DNA of 53,711 nt from a virus, in the IMG/VR virus record IMGVR_UViG_3300017734_000008, positions 1 through 53,711 of that record; one strand, 5' to 3'. The notes below the pieces were generated by a model. It searched no databases, was not told the DNA's origin, and saw nothing but the letters and a program-made list of their open reading frames with translations. This document shows, in pieces, positions 2,853-45,112 of the stretch. Each line of letters starts with the position of its first letter. Within the stretch, counting starts at the first letter, position 1. Made by a program: the position numbers and the translations under genes.

Positions 2853-3394
2853 TGTTTCCTTTAAACAAAGTTGAAGTAATTGATAATATTTTGACTCAAA
2901 GCTCAAATGTTGATTTAATTACTTATCTTATCAAACAAAATAATTGGGGATTCACTGAGGAAAAACCTTACGATGCCTTAGAAGGAGCTAATCATTTATT
3001 TGATTGTTTTACAAAAAATAAATCTTTTGGTTTATCTTGTCCAACTTTATTGAATAATAAACAGGTAACCGAAACACCTTTAAACATTTACGCAAAAATT
3101 ATTTTGGATACTGTAATGGAAAAAATAAATTTAAAATATAAAAGTATTTTTAGATTCTATTGGAACTATTATTTTCCAGGTAATAGTGCAGTTGAACACA
3201 TAGATCACTCAAACTTCGATCATATTTCAATAATATATAACCCACATACAAGTGAGGGCGGTACTAAAATCGATGGGAAATTTTATCCAGACGTAATGGG
3301 ACAAGCAAAAGTTTTTAATAGTGCAACGTTACATCAAGGTATTATTCAAGAAAAAGGGTATAGATTTAATTTGAATATTATAGTAAAATTATAA
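2852..3394 (+). CDS. 2OG-Fe(II) oxygenase-like protein 2
   Basis: A 180-aa protein with the full oxygenase pattern in its C-terminal half: HIDHSNFDHISIIYNP (HxD iron ligands), SATLHQG (second His) and GYRFNLNIIV (Arg for 2-oxoglutarate). I chose the ATG at 2852, which shares a base with the endolysin stop, rather than an upstream alternative codon at 2837 inside the endolysin. Substrate unknown; the closest look-alikes are cyanophage and pelagiphage oxygenases. Confidence 0.75.
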   Translation: MFPLNKVEVIDNILTQSSNVDLITYLIKQNNWGFTEEKPYDALEGANHLFDCFTKNKSFGLSCPTLLNNKQVTETPLNIYAKIILDTVMEKINLKYKSIFRFYWNYYFPGNSAVEHIDHSNFDHISIIYNPHTSEGGTKIDGKFYPDVMGQAKVFNSATLHQGIIQEKGYRFNLNIIVKL

Positions 3395-39666: not shown

Positions 39667-39938
39667 TGAAACAAAAAAAGTTATTACTAGGTGGACTTCT
39701 ATCTGCAGGTATAAAATATGCTGCTAAAAAGTATATGAAACGAAGCGGCAGAAATATATCTAAATTAACTAAAATGCAGCCAAAACTCTCAAAAAACAAA
39801 AGAGCTGGTGCTAAACATGATATGGCAACCGCTATACAAATGCAAGGAACCAAAAGTTTTCTGAACCCTAAGGGCATGACAATGAAAGATGTAAATAAAT
39901 TACAATCTTATAAAAATAGACTACCAAAGAATTACTAA
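39666..39938 (+). CDS. Basic hypothetical protein (90 aa)
   Basis: A 90-aa basic protein: a short hydrophobic start MKQKKLLLGGLLSAGIKYAA followed by KKYMKRSGRNISKLTKMQPK and a basic remainder ending NRLPKNY. The start could be a weak membrane anchor or simple amphipathic helix. One-base overlaps with the neighbours place it in the terminase operon. Function unknown. Confidence 0.65.
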   Translation: MKQKKLLLGGLLSAGIKYAAKKYMKRSGRNISKLTKMQPKLSKNKRAGAKHDMATAIQMQGTKSFLNPKGMTMKDVNKLQSYKNRLPKNY

Positions 39939-40462
39939 TGGCATTAAAAGCAAAAGCACTTAGAACTATAGATGATTTGACTCCCAAACAAAGAAAGTTT
40001 GTAGATATACTTGTAGCGAACTGGGGTGAAATCACAAAAGCCGAGGCCTGTAAAAGAGCTGGTTATGAAGCAAAGAATGATAAGAATTTTTCCGATATTG
40101 GAAGTAGACTAACTTTAAGACGACACAATCCACACGTAGTAAAATATATGGATCAACAGCTTGAAAAAGCTAAGGCCAAATATGAAAAGGATAGACTGCG
40201 TAGATACAAAAGATTAGAAAAATATGCTGACAATGCATTTGAAGATAAACAATATGCGTCAGCTATAAATGCTGAGTATAGATCAGGACAATTAGCTGGT
40301 TTATATGTAGATAAAAAAGAAGTAAAAGTATCAGGATTGGAGGGTATGTCACGTGCAGAGCTTGAGAAGAAACTCACAGAGCTTTCAAACAAGATCGATG
40401 GTTTCAACGCCAAAACGATCGAAGTTGAGCCAGAGACAAAAAAATTATCTAGTAAGTCATAA
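39938..40462 (+). CDS. terS: Terminase small subunit
   Basis: A 174-aa protein with the small terminase layout: DLTPKQRKFVDILVANWGEI then TKAEACKRAGY (helix-turn-helix), NPHVVKYMDQQLEKAKAKYE and LRRYKRLEKYADNAFEDKQY before a coiled coil (MSRAELEKKLTELSNK). Small subunits recognise the packaging site and hand DNA to the large subunit, which lies at 43628. The CTCGTT repeat island between the two genes is a candidate recognition site. The HTH assignment is by eye. Confidence 0.75.
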   Translation: MALKAKALRTIDDLTPKQRKFVDILVANWGEITKAEACKRAGYEAKNDKNFSDIGSRLTLRRHNPHVVKYMDQQLEKAKAKYEKDRLRRYKRLEKYADNAFEDKQYASAINAEYRSGQLAGLYVDKKEVKVSGLEGMSRAELEKKLTELSNKIDGFNAKTIEVEPETKKLSSKS

Positions 40463-40833: not shown

Positions 40834-41322
40834 ATGAAGAAGCGTGAGTCTAAACTCTGGCAAAGAATAAAAAAACACATAACAAAACCACATTTAATTC
40901 GTGTAGAATCTAATACTATCAATGGTATTCCTGACATAAATGGTTGTTGGAGTGGCAAAGAATTTTGGATTGAACTTAAATCGGACAAGGTAGGATATCC
41001 TAAGCTATCTAAATGGCAAATTAGTTGGATCAATAAACGAATCAAACACGGTGGTATAGTAATTATCTGCAATGAGACCCTCTCGCAGAGAGTTTTCCAA
41101 CTGTACAGACCGTTGTCCGCGATTACTGATGCTCGTTTACTGAAACCTCGGTGCTCGTTCTCATTTCCCGTACAATGGCCATCGGTGCAGGATGCCCTCT
41201 GGGATCTCCTGCAGCTGGATCCTGAAGCTCGTTCTCGTTCTCGTGACAAAGATCAACGAATCGGGGAAGAAATAATAAGGAACTCAGGCAGCATCACAAG
41301 TGAGGACTTGTCTGGTATCTGA
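40834..41322 (+). CDS. VRR-NUC-like nuclease (PD-(D/E)XK)
   Basis: A 162-aa protein whose N-terminal 95 residues match VRR-NUC nucleases: LIRVESNTINGIPDINGCWS (catalytic Asp in GIPD), KEFWIELKSDKVGYPKLSKW (ELK) and QISWINKRIKHGGIVIICNE. The family cuts branched DNA (resolvase-like), fitting DNA processing before packaging. The C-terminal part (about 105-150) differs in base composition and carries an ARSRSRD repeat produced by the CTCGTT repeats that continue into the non-coding DNA downstream. Confidence 0.75.
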   Translation: MKKRESKLWQRIKKHITKPHLIRVESNTINGIPDINGCWSGKEFWIELKSDKVGYPKLSKWQISWINKRIKHGGIVIICNETLSQRVFQLYRPLSAITDARLLKPRCSFSFPVQWPSVQDALWDLLQLDPEARSRSRDKDQRIGEEIIRNSGSITSEDLSGI

Positions 41323-41589
41323 TTCTCGTTTATTCTCGTTGTCGGGGGCCAACTTTTCTATCATTGTTTTCCGTTGAGCCCCCTTCAGGAGCTGGTGCAG
41401 CACACTCCGTGTTCTCGTTTATAGAAGCTCGTTCTCGTTTTAAGAAAGGTATATCAATGTGTACCTGCAGCTACAGCCTCAGGACACAGGTACGGAAGCT
41501 GGGTGGACAAAAAGTTCCTGAACTTCCTACTTGACTTATCTCCCATCTGGTCTTATGTACACATCTGGATTAACAACGAAAGGATAACA
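41323..41589. other. 267-base non-coding segment, candidate packaging (pac/cos) site
   Basis: This gap between terminase subunit genes holds five CTCGTT copies, a GC-rich hairpin (41344-41383) and a GTACCTG/CAGGTAC dyad (41461-41467, 41487-41493). It is visibly richer in G and C than the rest of the window. The reverse-strand and upstream forward ORFs crossing it are not protein-like. Position and repeats suit a terminase recognition site, but no cohesive end can be defined from sequence alone. Confidence 0.4.
41344..41383. other. GC-rich hairpin
   Basis: GGGGGC plus CAAC (41344-41353) pairs with GTTG plus GCCCCC (41373-41383, one bulged A), leaving a 19-base loop: about ten pairs with six G-C at the base, exceptional for this AT-rich sequence. 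No T-run follows, so it is not a standard terminator. Confidence 0.5.
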
Positions 41590-41907
41590 ATGAAAACACA
41601 TGTAATTAAGGATGACGGTACGGTGACCGTGGTAGAAGGAAAGATAGAAGATCTAGATGCGATGCAGAAGCTCGTAAAGGGATCTATTGAAATAGTAAAC
41701 GCAGCAATGCCTGCAGCATCTCCTGAGCTGCCAGGAGGAAAAGATCTTAAAGAGATGATAGTGAATGAAGAAGGTCTCTTCAACACTGCGTTCAAAACGA
41801 ATCACAAAGCTAGGAAGCTTATAGCTCAAGGACTGGACGTGCAGCTGGAGAACATTCAGGACATCCGTGGTGATGTCTTCGTGACTGACGGATGGCGGAT
41901 CGCGTGA
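41590..41907 (+). CDS. DUF3846 protein
   Basis: A 105-aa protein matching DUF3846: DGTVTVVEGKIEDLDAMQKL, VKGSIEIVNAA, MIVNEEGLFNTAFKTNHKAR and DIRGDVFVTDGWRIA. The LVxGxIEIV ... VNEEG ... N..A ... I.GDVFV pattern is characteristic of this phage/plasmid family of unknown function. Codons are visibly richer in G and C than neighbouring genes. AAAGGA precedes ATG 41590; the frame extends upstream to 41503 without a good site. Stop overlaps the next ATG (TGATG). Confidence 0.85.
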   Translation: MKTHVIKDDGTVTVVEGKIEDLDAMQKLVKGSIEIVNAAMPAASPELPGGKDLKEMIVNEEGLFNTAFKTNHKARKLIAQGLDVQLENIQDIRGDVFVTDGWRIA

Positions 41908-41999
41908 TGTCGTTCATTTTAATTCTCGCCCTGCTCTGGCCGAAGATTACCATGCCAGCACTGGGGCTCCTGGTGGTTACGCTGGTGGCAGTCTTGTGA
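41907..41999 (+). CDS. 30-aa membrane peptide
   Basis: A 30-aa hydrophobic ORF (MSFILILALLWPKITMPALG then LLVVTLVAVL) starting at a TGATG junction with the DUF3846 gene. One or two membrane helices. GC-rich like its neighbour. Translational coupling and composition are the only support. Confidence 0.4.
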   Translation: MSFILILALLWPKITMPALGLLVVTLVAVL

Positions 42000-42032
42000 A
42001 GCTCTCGCTCGTTCTCGTTGGAGTGCGCCTTG

Positions 42033-42049
42033 TTTAGAACTATTCTAAA
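42033..42049. promoter_or_regulatory. Perfect operator-like palindrome
   Basis: TTTAGAA (42033-42039), CTA, TTCTAAA (42043-42049) form a 7-bp perfect dyad upstream of the 42173 gene and of the 18-base repeated motif at 42126. It resembles a dimeric-repressor operator. Confidence 0.4.
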
Positions 42050-42125
42050 GTGGATAGCATCACACGGGGGGCGGGCGTGGCAGTTTTTAGGTAAGACTTG
42101 TGGAATTTTTTTATTTGACTTATAG

Positions 42126-42143
42126 GTGGGATATGATAAGACA
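42126..42143 (+). promoter_or_regulatory. 18-base upstream motif, copy 1
   Basis: GTGGGATATGATAAGACA lies about 30 bases before the ATG at 42173 and recurs exactly at 42805 before the gene at 42853. In both places a TTGA(C/A)(T/G) lies 11 bases before TATGAT, too close for a usual sigma70 promoter, so a phage-specific promoter or regulator site is possible. Confidence 0.5.
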
Positions 42144-42172
42144 ATGGAGAAAGATAACAAAAGGAGAAAAAT

Positions 42173-42589
42173 ATGGGACTAGATCAATTCGCACACATAA
42201 GAGACAAACAAAGTGGGCAGATGAAGCGACCAGACTTTGAAAAAGTCTATTCAGATAAATACGAGCCAACAATAGATGGTTTCGTTTGGAGAAAGCACTC
42301 ACGACTTCAACAGTTTATGCAAAATATTTGGGCAGAACAAAATCCAAATAGTGAAGAGGCAATGAATGGAGAAGATGAACTGACGCTGAATAAAGATATT
42401 ATAACCAACTTACGTAAAGAGATAGATGGCAACTATCATAATTCGTTTTGTAGTGGTGGCTTTTTTTGGGGACATCAGTTTCAAGAAGAAGCCGTCAAAG
42501 AATACTCCAAGCAAGATGTTCAGTTCTGTGATTGGGCTTTGGCACAAATCGAAAAGGGCGAAACTGTCGTCTATAATTGCTCGTGGTAA
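42173..42589 (+). CDS. Conserved phage hypothetical protein (MGLDQ type)
   Basis: A 138-aa protein starting MGLDQFAHIRDKQSGQMKRP, with FVWRKHSRLQQFMQNIWAEQ, DIITNLRKEIDGN, SGGFFWGHQFQ and a terminal EKGETVVYNCSW. The MGLDQ(Y/F) ... WRKH.RLQ.FM ... GE.V.Y..SW arrangement is a conserved family of phages and bacteria without known function. AAAGGAG lies seven bases before the ATG. Confidence 0.75.
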   Translation: MGLDQFAHIRDKQSGQMKRPDFEKVYSDKYEPTIDGFVWRKHSRLQQFMQNIWAEQNPNSEEAMNGEDELTLNKDIITNLRKEIDGNYHNSFCSGGFFWGHQFQEEAVKEYSKQDVQFCDWALAQIEKGETVVYNCSW

Positions 42590-42638
42590 ATCTCTCGTTG
42601 TTGCTTATCTCGTTGTTTAAAAAGAAAAGGGGGTACAA

Positions 42639-42737
42639 ATGATGGGGGGACTAATTTGGTTTTCGCCATTAATATTTATCTACATATTATTAGTGATGGA
42701 TATTATTAGTTTAGGTTCTGTTTTTAGTTTGTTCTAG
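42639..42737 (+). CDS. 32-aa membrane peptide
   Basis: A 32-aa hydrophobic ORF (MMGGLIWFSPLIFIYILLVM then DIISLGSVFSLF) with a purine-rich AAAAGGGGG site before the ATG. It would span the membrane once. Small size leaves some doubt, but the strong binding site in an otherwise empty gap supports expression. Confidence 0.5.
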   Translation: MMGGLIWFSPLIFIYILLVMDIISLGSVFSLF

Positions 42738-42804
42738 CTTTGTCTGTGGAAAACCCATTATGAACAGGCAGACCCATAATGGACACAAAGTTGTTGAAGT
42801 TAAT

Positions 42805-42822
42805 GTGGGATATGATAAGACA
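42805..42822 (+). promoter_or_regulatory. 18-base upstream motif, copy 2
   Basis: Second exact copy of GTGGGATATGATAAGACA, about 30 bases before ATG 42853, like copy 1 at 42126. Equal distance to the downstream gene in both cases points to a promoter or a translation/transcription control site rather than a chance repeat. Confidence 0.5.
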
Positions 42823-42852
42823 GGCTATTACTAACACTAACAAAGGAAAACA

Positions 42853-43179
42853 ATGAGTAATGCAATAAGAAAGCTAAAGGCAGATGAGAAAAAAATCATC
42901 TTGGCTTATGCTACAATTAAACTGCAAGCAAATCGTTTATCTAAAGAGTTAGATACAATGAAACAAAACTTGGTTGATGTGTTTGAGAGAACCAAACAAA
43001 ATCTAGTTATTGTTCAAGATGAGAATGGTTGTAGTTTTGGAGTGCAGAAAATCAAACGTAAAAGAAAGAAGTTTGAAACTGCTAACTTTAAAATAAAACA
43101 TAATGATTTATTCAATCAGTTCTGTACTGAAATTGAATATAATGAGTTTAAAGCTATTGGGGATAGTAATGACAAATAG
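42853..43179 (+). CDS. Hypothetical coiled-coil protein (108 aa)
   Basis: A 108-aa protein: LKADEKKIILAYATIKLQAN and RLSKELDTMKQNLVDVFERT form a long helix, followed by LVIVQDENGCSFGVQKIKRK, a strand-turn-strand, and a basic end. No family recognised. AAAGGA before the ATG; it follows the second copy of the 18-base motif. Confidence 0.65.
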   Translation: MSNAIRKLKADEKKIILAYATIKLQANRLSKELDTMKQNLVDVFERTKQNLVIVQDENGCSFGVQKIKRKRKKFETANFKIKHNDLFNQFCTEIEYNEFKAIGDSNDK

Positions 43180-43414
43180 TTTGATGAACATATCTAAAGT
43201 ATTAGCCGAGCAATCGGCTAATGCTCAACTTACTGACAACGTAAAGTTAGAACCTGACGCAGTTAGTAAATTAAATTATGAAGTTATGTATAAAATGTTA
43301 GAGGGCGAAGTAGAAAAGCTAATACTAGAAAATAATGGCAACCCTTTAATCGATAACTTTAAAACTAGGATTGTAAGAAAATTTAGTTACTTAATAGAAA
43401 AGTTAAGTAGCTAA
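43169..43414 (+). CDS. Hypothetical protein (81 aa)
   Basis: An 81-aa helical protein: MTNSLMNISKVLAEQSANAQ, KLNYEVMYKMLEGEVEKLIL and KTRIVRKFSYLIEKLSS. Start at ATG 43169 overlaps the previous stop by 11 bases; the longer frame from 43103 is less likely. It is the last gene before the strong terminator. Function unknown. Confidence 0.6.
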   Translation: MTNSLMNISKVLAEQSANAQLTDNVKLEPDAVSKLNYEVMYKMLEGEVEKLILENNGNPLIDNFKTRIVRKFSYLIEKLSS

Positions 43415-43422
43415 CTACAACC

Positions 43423-43454
43423 AACACCAATAGCCCGTAAGGGCTATTGGTGTT
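43423..43454 (+). terminator. Strong intrinsic-type terminator hairpin
   Basis: AACACCAATAGCCC (43423-43436), loop GTAA, GGGCTATTGGTGTT (43441-43454): a perfect 14-bp stem with a tetraloop, then CTCTTA. It closes the small-gene operon ending at 43414, just before the terminase/portal operon. The stem is symmetric and could act in both directions. Confidence 0.85.
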
Positions 43455-43541: not shown

Positions 43542-43627
43542 TGTAAGAGTTTATAGCAAGTCGAATAGAAGTAGTGTATGCTGAAACGGTATGGTATAAA
43601 GGGACCCAAGAAAACAGAATTTTTAAG

Positions 43628-45112
43628 ATGAGTACATTAGATCAATTAACAGATGATGAATTAAGAACCTTAATTCTTAAGAAGCAGATCGAATATATAA
43701 AATTATGTCAGGATGACTTTTTATTATTCGTGAAAGCTATGTGGCCTGATTTTATTTATAGGAACACAGAGGACCCTGAGAAATGGGGGCACCATCAAAT
43801 AATAGCAAATGAGTTTCAAGACATAGCTTCAAAAGAATCTAAACGTCTTATTGTGAATATGCCACCAAGGCATACTAAATCAGAGTTCGCTTCATATTTA
43901 TTTCCTGCTTGGATGATTGGTAAGAATCCTAAGATGAAACTTATGCAAGTATCACACAATGCTGAACTTGCTTCGCGGTTCGGTAGCAAAGTTAGAAACT
44001 TAATGGAAACCGAAGACTACAAAAGTATCTTCGGAGATGTTAGTCTAAGAGAAGATAGTAAGGCTAAAGGACGTTGGGAGACCAATCATGGTGGAGAATA
44101 TTTTGCAGCGGGGGTAGGCGGTTCAATCACAGGACGAGGGGCGGACTTACTTATTATTGATGACCCACATACTGAACAAGACTCAATGTCTGACTCTGCT
44201 ATGGAAAGAGCTTTTGAATGGTATTCATCAGGACCCCGACAACGTTTACAACCAGGAGGCTCAATCGTAGTTGTAATGACAAGATGGGCAACGGATGATT
44301 TAACAGGGAGGCTCATCAAATCACAATCTGAACCTAAATCAGATTCGTGGCGCGTTATTAATTTTCCAGCAATACTTCCCTCAGGTAATCCTGTATGGCC
44401 TGAATACTGGCCACTCGATGAATTAGAAAAAGTTAAAGCATCGGTGACAACGAAAAACTGGAATGCACAATACATGCAGGACCCAACGTCAGAGGAAGGT
44501 GCAATTATTAAAAGAGATTGGTGGCAACCGTGGAACGAAGAACGGATACCGACACTTAAACATGTGATGCAAAGTTATGATACTGCGTATTCTAAAAAAG
44601 AATCTGCAGATTACTCAGCTATTACAACGTGGGGAATATTTCAACCTGCAGAAGGTTATGAAGATTGTTTAATTTTATTAGATGCAATAAAAGGAAGGTT
44701 CGACTTTCCTGATCTTAAGAATTTAGCACTAGAGCAATATCAATACTGGCAACCTGAAACAACTATTGTTGAAGCTAAAGCTACAGGACAACCTTTGATT
44801 CATGAATTAAGACGAGCAGGTATACCTGTAATAGATTATGTTCCTGCAAGAGGTAGAGATAAGCATACTAGAATTAACTCAGTAGCCCCTATATTTGAGT
44901 CTGGTATGGTTTTTGCCCCAACAGATGAGAAATTTGCACAAGATGTTATTGAAGAAGTAGCTGCTTTTCCTCACGGTCAATACGATGACTATGTTGACTC
45001 TATGACCCAAGCAGTGATAAGATTCAGGGAAGGTGGATTTGTTACAACTTATTCTGATGCAATAGACGAACCTAATTTTAAGATTGAAAAAGATTATAGA
45101 TACTATGGATAG
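43628..45112 (+). CDS. terL: Terminase large subunit
   Basis: A 494-aa packaging ATPase/nuclease. Walker A region is LIVNMPPRHTKSEFAS (about 74-89), Walker B ADLLIIDDPHTEQDS (172-186) with VVVMTRW as coupling motif; the RNase H-like nuclease has VMQSYDTAYSKKESADYSA (D318), TIVEAKATGQPLIHEL and DDYVDSMTQAV (third acidic residue). This is the variant Walker type of many T4/P22-like large subunits. I use ATG 43628 (MSTLDQLTDDELRTL); the frame is open to a GTG at 43574. Confidence 0.95.
   Translation: MSTLDQLTDDELRTLILKKQIEYIKLCQDDFLLFVKAMWPDFIYRNTEDPEKWGHHQIIANEFQDIASKESKRLIVNMPPRHTKSEFASYLFPAWMIGKNPKMKLMQVSHNAELASRFGSKVRNLMETEDYKSIFGDVSLREDSKAKGRWETNHGGEYFAAGVGGSITGRGADLLIIDDPHTEQDSMSDSAMERAFEWYSSGPRQRLQPGGSIVVVMTRWATDDLTGRLIKSQSEPKSDSWRVINFPAILPSGNPVWPEYWPLDELEKVKASVTTKNWNAQYMQDPTSEEGAIIKRDWWQPWNEERIPTLKHVMQSYDTAYSKKESADYSAITTWGIFQPAEGYEDCLILLDAIKGRFDFPDLKNLALEQYQYWQPETTIVEAKATGQPLIHELRRAGIPVIDYVPARGRDKHTRINSVAPIFESGMVFAPTDEKFAQDVIEEVAAFPHGQYDDYVDSMTQAVIRFREGGFVTTYSDAIDEPNFKIEKDYRYYG

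Follow-up and report, generated by a model that had tools for sequence, protein, structure and literature searches.

The repeat island and its surroundings

The locus described here raises the question of what a dense set of short repeats, all in one orientation, might be doing between the two terminase genes of a virus. An initial annotation had offered two answers, a packaging recognition site or a recently acquired repeat element, and we weighed both against several other explanations.

The window, i.e., the whole stretch of DNA that was analysed, comprises the 53,711 bases of a virus record. Its repeat island is flanked by a TerS-like gene (39938-40462; phrog_51, with Pfam Terminase_2 slightly below the cut-off) on one side and the gene for TerL (43574-45112; phrog_38) on the other. 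The island begins within a VRR-NUC-like nuclease gene (40834..41322, + strand), the C-terminal tail of which is encoded by the initial stretch of the array. This tail reads ...PEARSRSRDKD..., so that the spill of the repeats into the nuclease as ARSRSRD, as annotated initially, is indeed present. The GC-richer DNA noted at the same time is equally apparent from GC along the window: between 41000 and 42100 it is mostly 45-53%, falling to 40-44% at 41400-41800, whereas the DNA to the left and right has 31-37% and the background is about 34%. Judged by TerL, the nearest named relatives are the Pelagibacter phages HTVC023P (70%) and HTVC027P (60%).

Between the nuclease gene and TerL lies a cassette of small genes on the + strand. 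The first gene past the promoter-like element discussed below is DUF3846-like (41590..41907; the Pfam match, PF12957, is to the longer ORF 41503-41907); in the comparisons with relatives it was scored by presence alone. It is followed by (i) a gene starting MGLDQFAHIRDK... (42173..42589), with no function assigned, homologues of which accompany most arrays; (ii) a gene for 108 aa (42853..43179), without assigned function, the start of which is the antisense target considered below; and (iii) a gene for 81 aa (43169..43414), likewise without assigned function, which is present in array-carrying loci and was not found in array-less ones. Family searches on the cassette proteins returned weak matches only and established no candidate CTCGTT-binding protein. 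The cassette also contains short hydrophobic, membrane-peptide-like ORFs (41905-42001 and 42640-42738) and, ahead of two of its genes, two directly repeated stretches of 29 bp that are 83% identical, TTGA..GTGGGATATGATAAGACA, at 42115-42143 and 42794-42822, which look like a second promoter type. Directly upstream of TerL, a perfect 14-bp inverted repeat with a 4-nt loop (43423-43454) is terminator-like on the - strand.

Orientation and conservation of the CTCGTT array

The 13 oriented copies of CTCGTT originally reported between the terminase genes were recovered in full, 13 on the + strand and none on the - strand of 41132-42614. The main array (41132..41439, + strand) comprises copies starting at 41132, 41154, 41228, 41234, 41325, 41335, 41414, 41428, and 41434. 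Within the cassette there are, in addition, a doublet CTCGTTCTCGTT directly 3' of a small ORF (42008..42019, + strand) and a pair of copies starting at 42594 and 42609 (42594..42614, + strand) directly 3' of the stop codon of ORF 42173-42589. Such CTCGTTCTCGTT doublets occur three times in the island and are absent from the rest of the record. Counted over both strands of the entire 53.7 kb window, CTCGTT has 23 matches, compared with 13.9 expected.

Relatives of the locus were gathered by three scans: (i) a search for AGCTCGTTCTCGTT among viral contigs, which returned about twenty with the same island; (ii) a scan with the nuclease protein alone, which is hence blind to the repeats; and (iii) a scan by pattern. 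Combined, these provided 145 loci for which 900 nt or more of downstream sequence was available, and which were reduced to 76 by dereplication; 70 of the 76 carry at least six copies of CTCGTT and are referred to as array loci. The loci are related, not independent, so that p-values overstate independence and serve as guides.

The arrangement of the main array proved to be common to about 70 dereplicated loci. The islands of the array loci (450 bp past the nuclease core, 31.5 kb altogether) contain 707 forward copies and a single reverse copy, i.e., 22.4/kb and 0.03/kb, respectively, while the forward density in the flanks is 0.05/kb, which is background (18 copies seen, 18.2 expected from base composition). 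The repeats are thus far from equally frequent elsewhere, and the motif is conserved in relatives, two points that the initial annotation had put forward for checking. Each long record has one island, in which CTCGTT clusters lie about 75-100 bp apart. When contigs of cellular genomes were scanned for the array, mostly simple tandem or low-complexity repeats were recovered, and nothing island-like. An early impression that CTCGTT is avoided outside the islands, with forward copies rarer than reverse ones, was discarded when the counts equalled the Markov expectation, and the Chi-like GCTGGTGG gave no signal (four forward, three reverse). Other strand-biased words in the islands of array loci are GAGCTGG (56 forward, 1 reverse), CCTGCAGC (51, 0), and GCAGCG (98, 5).

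The hexamer is strict: its single-base variants are mostly not in excess in the islands. In the nuclease tail of array loci it occurs in three reading frames, and another 434 copies are located 3' of the nuclease stop codon. The occurrence of CTCGTT in several frames and after stop codons argues for selection on the nucleotides and not on the ARSRSRD peptide. Conservation is 0.93 in hexamer columns compared with 0.57 in other noncoding columns, a comparison that is partly circular. That the repeat element was acquired recently, the second of the two answers offered initially, fits poorly with an array common to loci with merely 46-60% nuclease identity; the array-containing cassette does, nonetheless, seem to be exchanged as an allele.

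Array-less relatives and the packaging question

An additional scan, for which TerS from an array-less locus served as the query, yielded a natural deletion series. The array-less loci (L178/L325, L179, L181, L334, L335, and L336), in which TerL is 89-92% identical to that of the window, retain TerS, nuclease, hairpin, and TerL, and are without both the promoter and the small genes of 41590-43414. TerL starts 0.5-0.6 kb past the nuclease core in these loci, compared with about 2.5 kb otherwise. In the nuclease of L336, the sequence changes near residue 95 from the allele of the window to the array-less allele, which indicates exchangeable, cassette-like behaviour of the stretch from the nuclease tail to TerL. 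A compensating array was sought in the array-less loci, and none was found.

These relatives bear directly on the proposal of a packaging recognition site, in which TerS would bind the CTCGTT direct repeats as a pac- or cosB-like site and TerL would cut nearby to begin packaging. The proposal draws on the location between terS and terL, on the presence of multiple direct repeats, which in the SPP1 pac region also span promoters (PMC4737164), on different direct repeats at the same place in HTVC023P, and on right contig ends that, in many contigs, cluster in the first 700 bp or so of TerL, chiefly at about 200-660 bp from its start. These contig ends may mark physical genome ends, but they are more probably assembly breaks: they pile up inside the conserved TerL gene, as such breaks would, and some are mere limits of the stored data. 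Moreover, L336, with TerS 93% and TerL 91% identical to those of the window and an almost unchanged TerS HTH region, carries no CTCGTT at all, and the TerS HTH regions of L221 (13 copies) and L178 (none) are near-identical, whereas the full array is retained in loci with TerS just 47-65% identical to that of the window (47% in L041). Array loss accompanies loss of promoter and cassette; array presence, in other words, tracks these and not TerS, and the feature of pac sites that we looked for, repeats retained together with their TerS, was not found. This weakens the packaging reading without closing it, because SPP1 and SF6 have differing pac repeats and yet exchangeable TerS proteins (PMC4737164). 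On these comparisons we consider a packaging site unlikely. Of the initial annotation, the conserved, oriented and functional-looking nature of the repeats stands, while their role as a packaging site bound by TerS is not supported. Array-less relatives with nearly the same terminase also counsel caution in taking terS-adjacent repeats for packaging sites.

The same relatives speak against an origin of replication or partition, with an iteron-like array and the hairpin as a loading site. Clusters about 75-100 bp apart in a single island per genome, along with a stem-loop with a T-rich loop, would suit such an origin, but close relatives with the same backbone genes have neither the array nor a visible substitute, and GC skew is unchanged at the island, so that we regard this explanation as very improbable indeed.

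Coupling of the array to a promoter and cassette

A promoter-like element, TTGAC-N3-TN-TCCCAT-N4-TCTTAT-NT, is present at 41531..41558 (+ strand) and is unique in the window, where a search allowing up to three mismatches gave one match compared with 0.04 expected. Its relaxed form was detected in 66 of the 70 array loci. The last CTCGTT is positioned a median of 95 bp upstream of TTGAC, and in 74% of cases the distance is within 80-112 bp, compared with 8% for random placement; in several loci it is 133-190 bp. CTCGTT density is 9-26/kb at -600 to -100 relative to the promoter and almost zero from about -90 to +200. Further copies occur within the cassettes of relatives, at 2-6/kb from +200 to +900 and 1-3/kb up to +1500, and 24% of these cassette copies lie no more than 45 nt past a stop codon, compared with 9.5% at random. 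The promoter spacing, the density gap and the cassette sites together favour an oriented regulatory array, and we read the CTCGTT array as an oriented array of putative binding sites controlling the cassette.

Two explanations compete with this reading. According to the first, CUCGUU would be recognized in RNA by an RNA-binding protein or termination factor, the repeats serving either as a sponge or to signal 3' ends or termination. Such a role would be in keeping with the uniform orientation of the repeats in the direction of transcription, with the strictness of a hexamer most of whose one-base variants are not in excess, with the position of the main array after the 3' end of the nuclease gene and with the enrichment of cassette sites past stop codons. 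A fixed spacing to a downstream promoter, however, is unexpected for RNA made from upstream. Folding z-scores computed by window on both strands are about 0 outside the hairpin described below, with no further structure, and Rfam gave no match at gathering score, on which grounds a structured noncoding RNA beyond the hairpin was rejected. The complement AACGAG is not enriched in leaders either (6 seen at starts, 4.5 expected), and CTCGTT as an antisense to leaders was likewise rejected. Recognition at the RNA level thus appears rather doubtful to us.

The second explanation is that CTCGTT is a selfish or mutational repeat, spreading itself without function inside a GC-rich exchangeable cassette. 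Consistent with this, the repeats spill into coding regions in several frames, the cassette is exchanged as an allele, with the L336 switch lying within the nuclease gene, and one locus, L326, has few CTCGTT copies and an altered promoter. A functionless repeat would not readily account for positions kept across distant clades, near-perfect orientation, conserved hexamer columns, and a sharp gap around the promoter, and we think it very unlikely.

A hairpin loop complementary to the start of a cassette gene

The ten-pair GC hairpin that had been pointed out initially is found at 41344..41383 (+ strand) as GGGGGC-C-AAC..loop..GTTG-A-GCCCCC, with ten pairs, one bulged A, and a folding energy of -16.9 kcal/mol. 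Its conserved T-rich loop includes an antisense core, TCATTGTTTTCC (41361-41372), that is complementary to GGAAAACAATGA (42845..42856, + strand), a segment with the ribosome-binding site and the ATG at which gene 42853-43179 starts; the match extends to 16 nt if one mismatch is allowed. The hairpin is conserved, array-less loci included, while in some clades no hairpin was found. Each of the first seven stem pairs shows at least three standard pair types, in arms that had been picked for pairing beforehand, a choice that biases the count towards covariation.

When the island was searched with the leader of each gene, with no prior hairpin choice and antisense runs of 10 nt or more scored as matches, the leader of gene 42853 matched in 70% of 61 loci, compared with 0-13% for other genes and 5% for a sense control; in 18 of the 61 loci, including L041, L188, L196, and L246, its match is absent or weak. 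Loop and leader change together in other clades (CCTCTTTGTTA/TAACAAAGAGG, TTTTGTTTGTGTT/AACACAAACAAAA, CCTTTGTTAGTT/AACTAACAAAGG, CCTCTTTGTTTGTT/AACAAACAAAGAGG), and the match of a loop to its own leader comes to 11.4 nt, compared with 7.0 when loops are swapped between loci that differ in loop sequence, none of 2000 permutations being as good. By duplex energy, the leader of gene 42853 is the best of 73 leaders in the window (-18.3 kcal/mol; next -17.1) and takes first place in 18 of the 27 loci compared, where 3.2 would be expected. As the loop is antisense to this ribosome-binding site and start codon and the two change jointly from clade to clade, we regard the hairpin as a probable antisense regulator of translation.

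For the hairpin alone, an operator pair has to be considered, in which a protein would recognize loop and leader as two inversely oriented copies of one double-stranded DNA site. Seen from the other strand, an inverted repeat is an identical double-stranded site, and sequence alone cannot separate the two readings. The match, however, falls precisely within the loop of a stem whose pairs covary, covers the ribosome-binding site and often the start codon, and consistently involves just one gene's leader; an operator pair is accordingly a minority explanation in our estimation. The antisense relation is, on the sequences compared, the part of our interpretation in which we place more confidence than in the complete model presented below.

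In two array-less loci, the loop matches, over 11 nt, the start of a conserved 25-codon ORF (L325 1963 and L336 2545, both on the - strand). This ORF (MDTKFMI..YWYYLTFYVI) is hydrophobic and lies on the opposite strand about 5 kb from the hairpin, beside a paralogue of gene 42853. The match is suggestive only, and could be a retargeted antisense pair.

A putative control region

We propose that in a pelagiphage-like group the island serves as a compact region from which the cassette of small genes between TerS and TerL is controlled. The proposal starts from the conservation and orientation of the repeats, their coupling to the promoter and their loss together with the cassette, and from the complementarity and covariation of loop and leader. 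The CTCGTT array would consist of oriented sites for one sequence-specific factor, encoded by phage or host. We infer that this factor binds as a protein and that the array, located upstream of the promoter at 41531 and more sparsely within the cassette, would raise, block or insulate transcription in a stoperator-like manner. The hairpin loop, if it acts as + strand RNA, in cis or in trans, would pair with the start region of gene 42853, covering both its ribosome-binding site and its start codon, and so repress its translation. Read-through transcripts from TerS and the nuclease gene, which would contain the hairpin, may therefore be translated differently from transcripts initiated at the promoter at 41531, which would not. 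A feature that argues against the model is the uniform orientation, which a dsDNA-binding activator acting over 100-500 bp would not need. Control of the cassette by an oriented array together with an antisense hairpin nevertheless fits best, and we put the chances of the whole model being correct at about even.

Among the papers that were searched, none mentions CTCGTT in connection with a phage or describes a repeat island in HTVC023P-type phages. It is possible, though we would put it slightly short of an even chance, that the combination of a dense oriented hexamer array, one promoter, and an antisense hairpin coevolving with a start signal represents a control island for which we found no description. 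The island is more general than one genome, many relatives carrying the same putative control region with about ten copies of the hexamer, and the predicted elements are directly testable: the set of oriented sites, the one promoter, and the antisense pair, for which covariation provides a ready-made test.

Comparison with known systems

Antisense hairpins with loops directed against ribosome-binding sites are familiar from, e.g., CopA and the C-rich loops of RNAIII. The hairpin described here resembles these in its stable stem and in a loop complementary to the ribosome-binding site and start codon of its target, but it lies on the same strand as the target, about 1.5 kb upstream, with a loop that covaries, rather than overlapping or opposite the target.

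Among named phages, Pelagibacter phage HTVC023P (MN698239; TerL 70% identical) has a nuclease homologue at the same place and a layout similar to that of the window: in place of the CTCGTT array, it has three direct repeats with AACAACGAAA, about 70 bp apart (L124 2400-2700), with a promoter-like TTGAC..GCCAT..TATAA about 100 bp past them. Unlike the window, HTVC023P has no CTCGTT in this region, and an antisense loop to its gp27 was sought and not found. HTVC027P has a GC-rich noncoding stretch (L125 about 2980-3150) with a long hairpin (CTGATCCCAGATCTACT ... AGTAGATCAGGGATCAG), located between divergent genes near the terminase genes.

In the pac regions of SPP1 and SF6, direct repeats and promoters adjoin the small terminase gene (PMC4737164), and the window likewise has direct repeats and a promoter near its small terminase gene. 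The array described here, however, is located past a nuclease gene as well as TerS, has a much higher density, and disappears in relatives with no matching change in TerS.

The stoperators of cluster A mycobacteriophages (L5 type) are many asymmetric sites oriented with transcription, some of which are at a promoter while most are not (PMC6550527, PMC9283540). The sites described here are 6 bp long rather than 13-14 bp, have no known repressor, and are confined to one 1.5 kb island, with background frequencies elsewhere, rather than spread genome-wide. They share with stoperators their asymmetry and an orientation with transcription that is nearly without exception (707 forward, 1 reverse), and mycobacteriophage stoperators appear to us to be the closest functional comparison.
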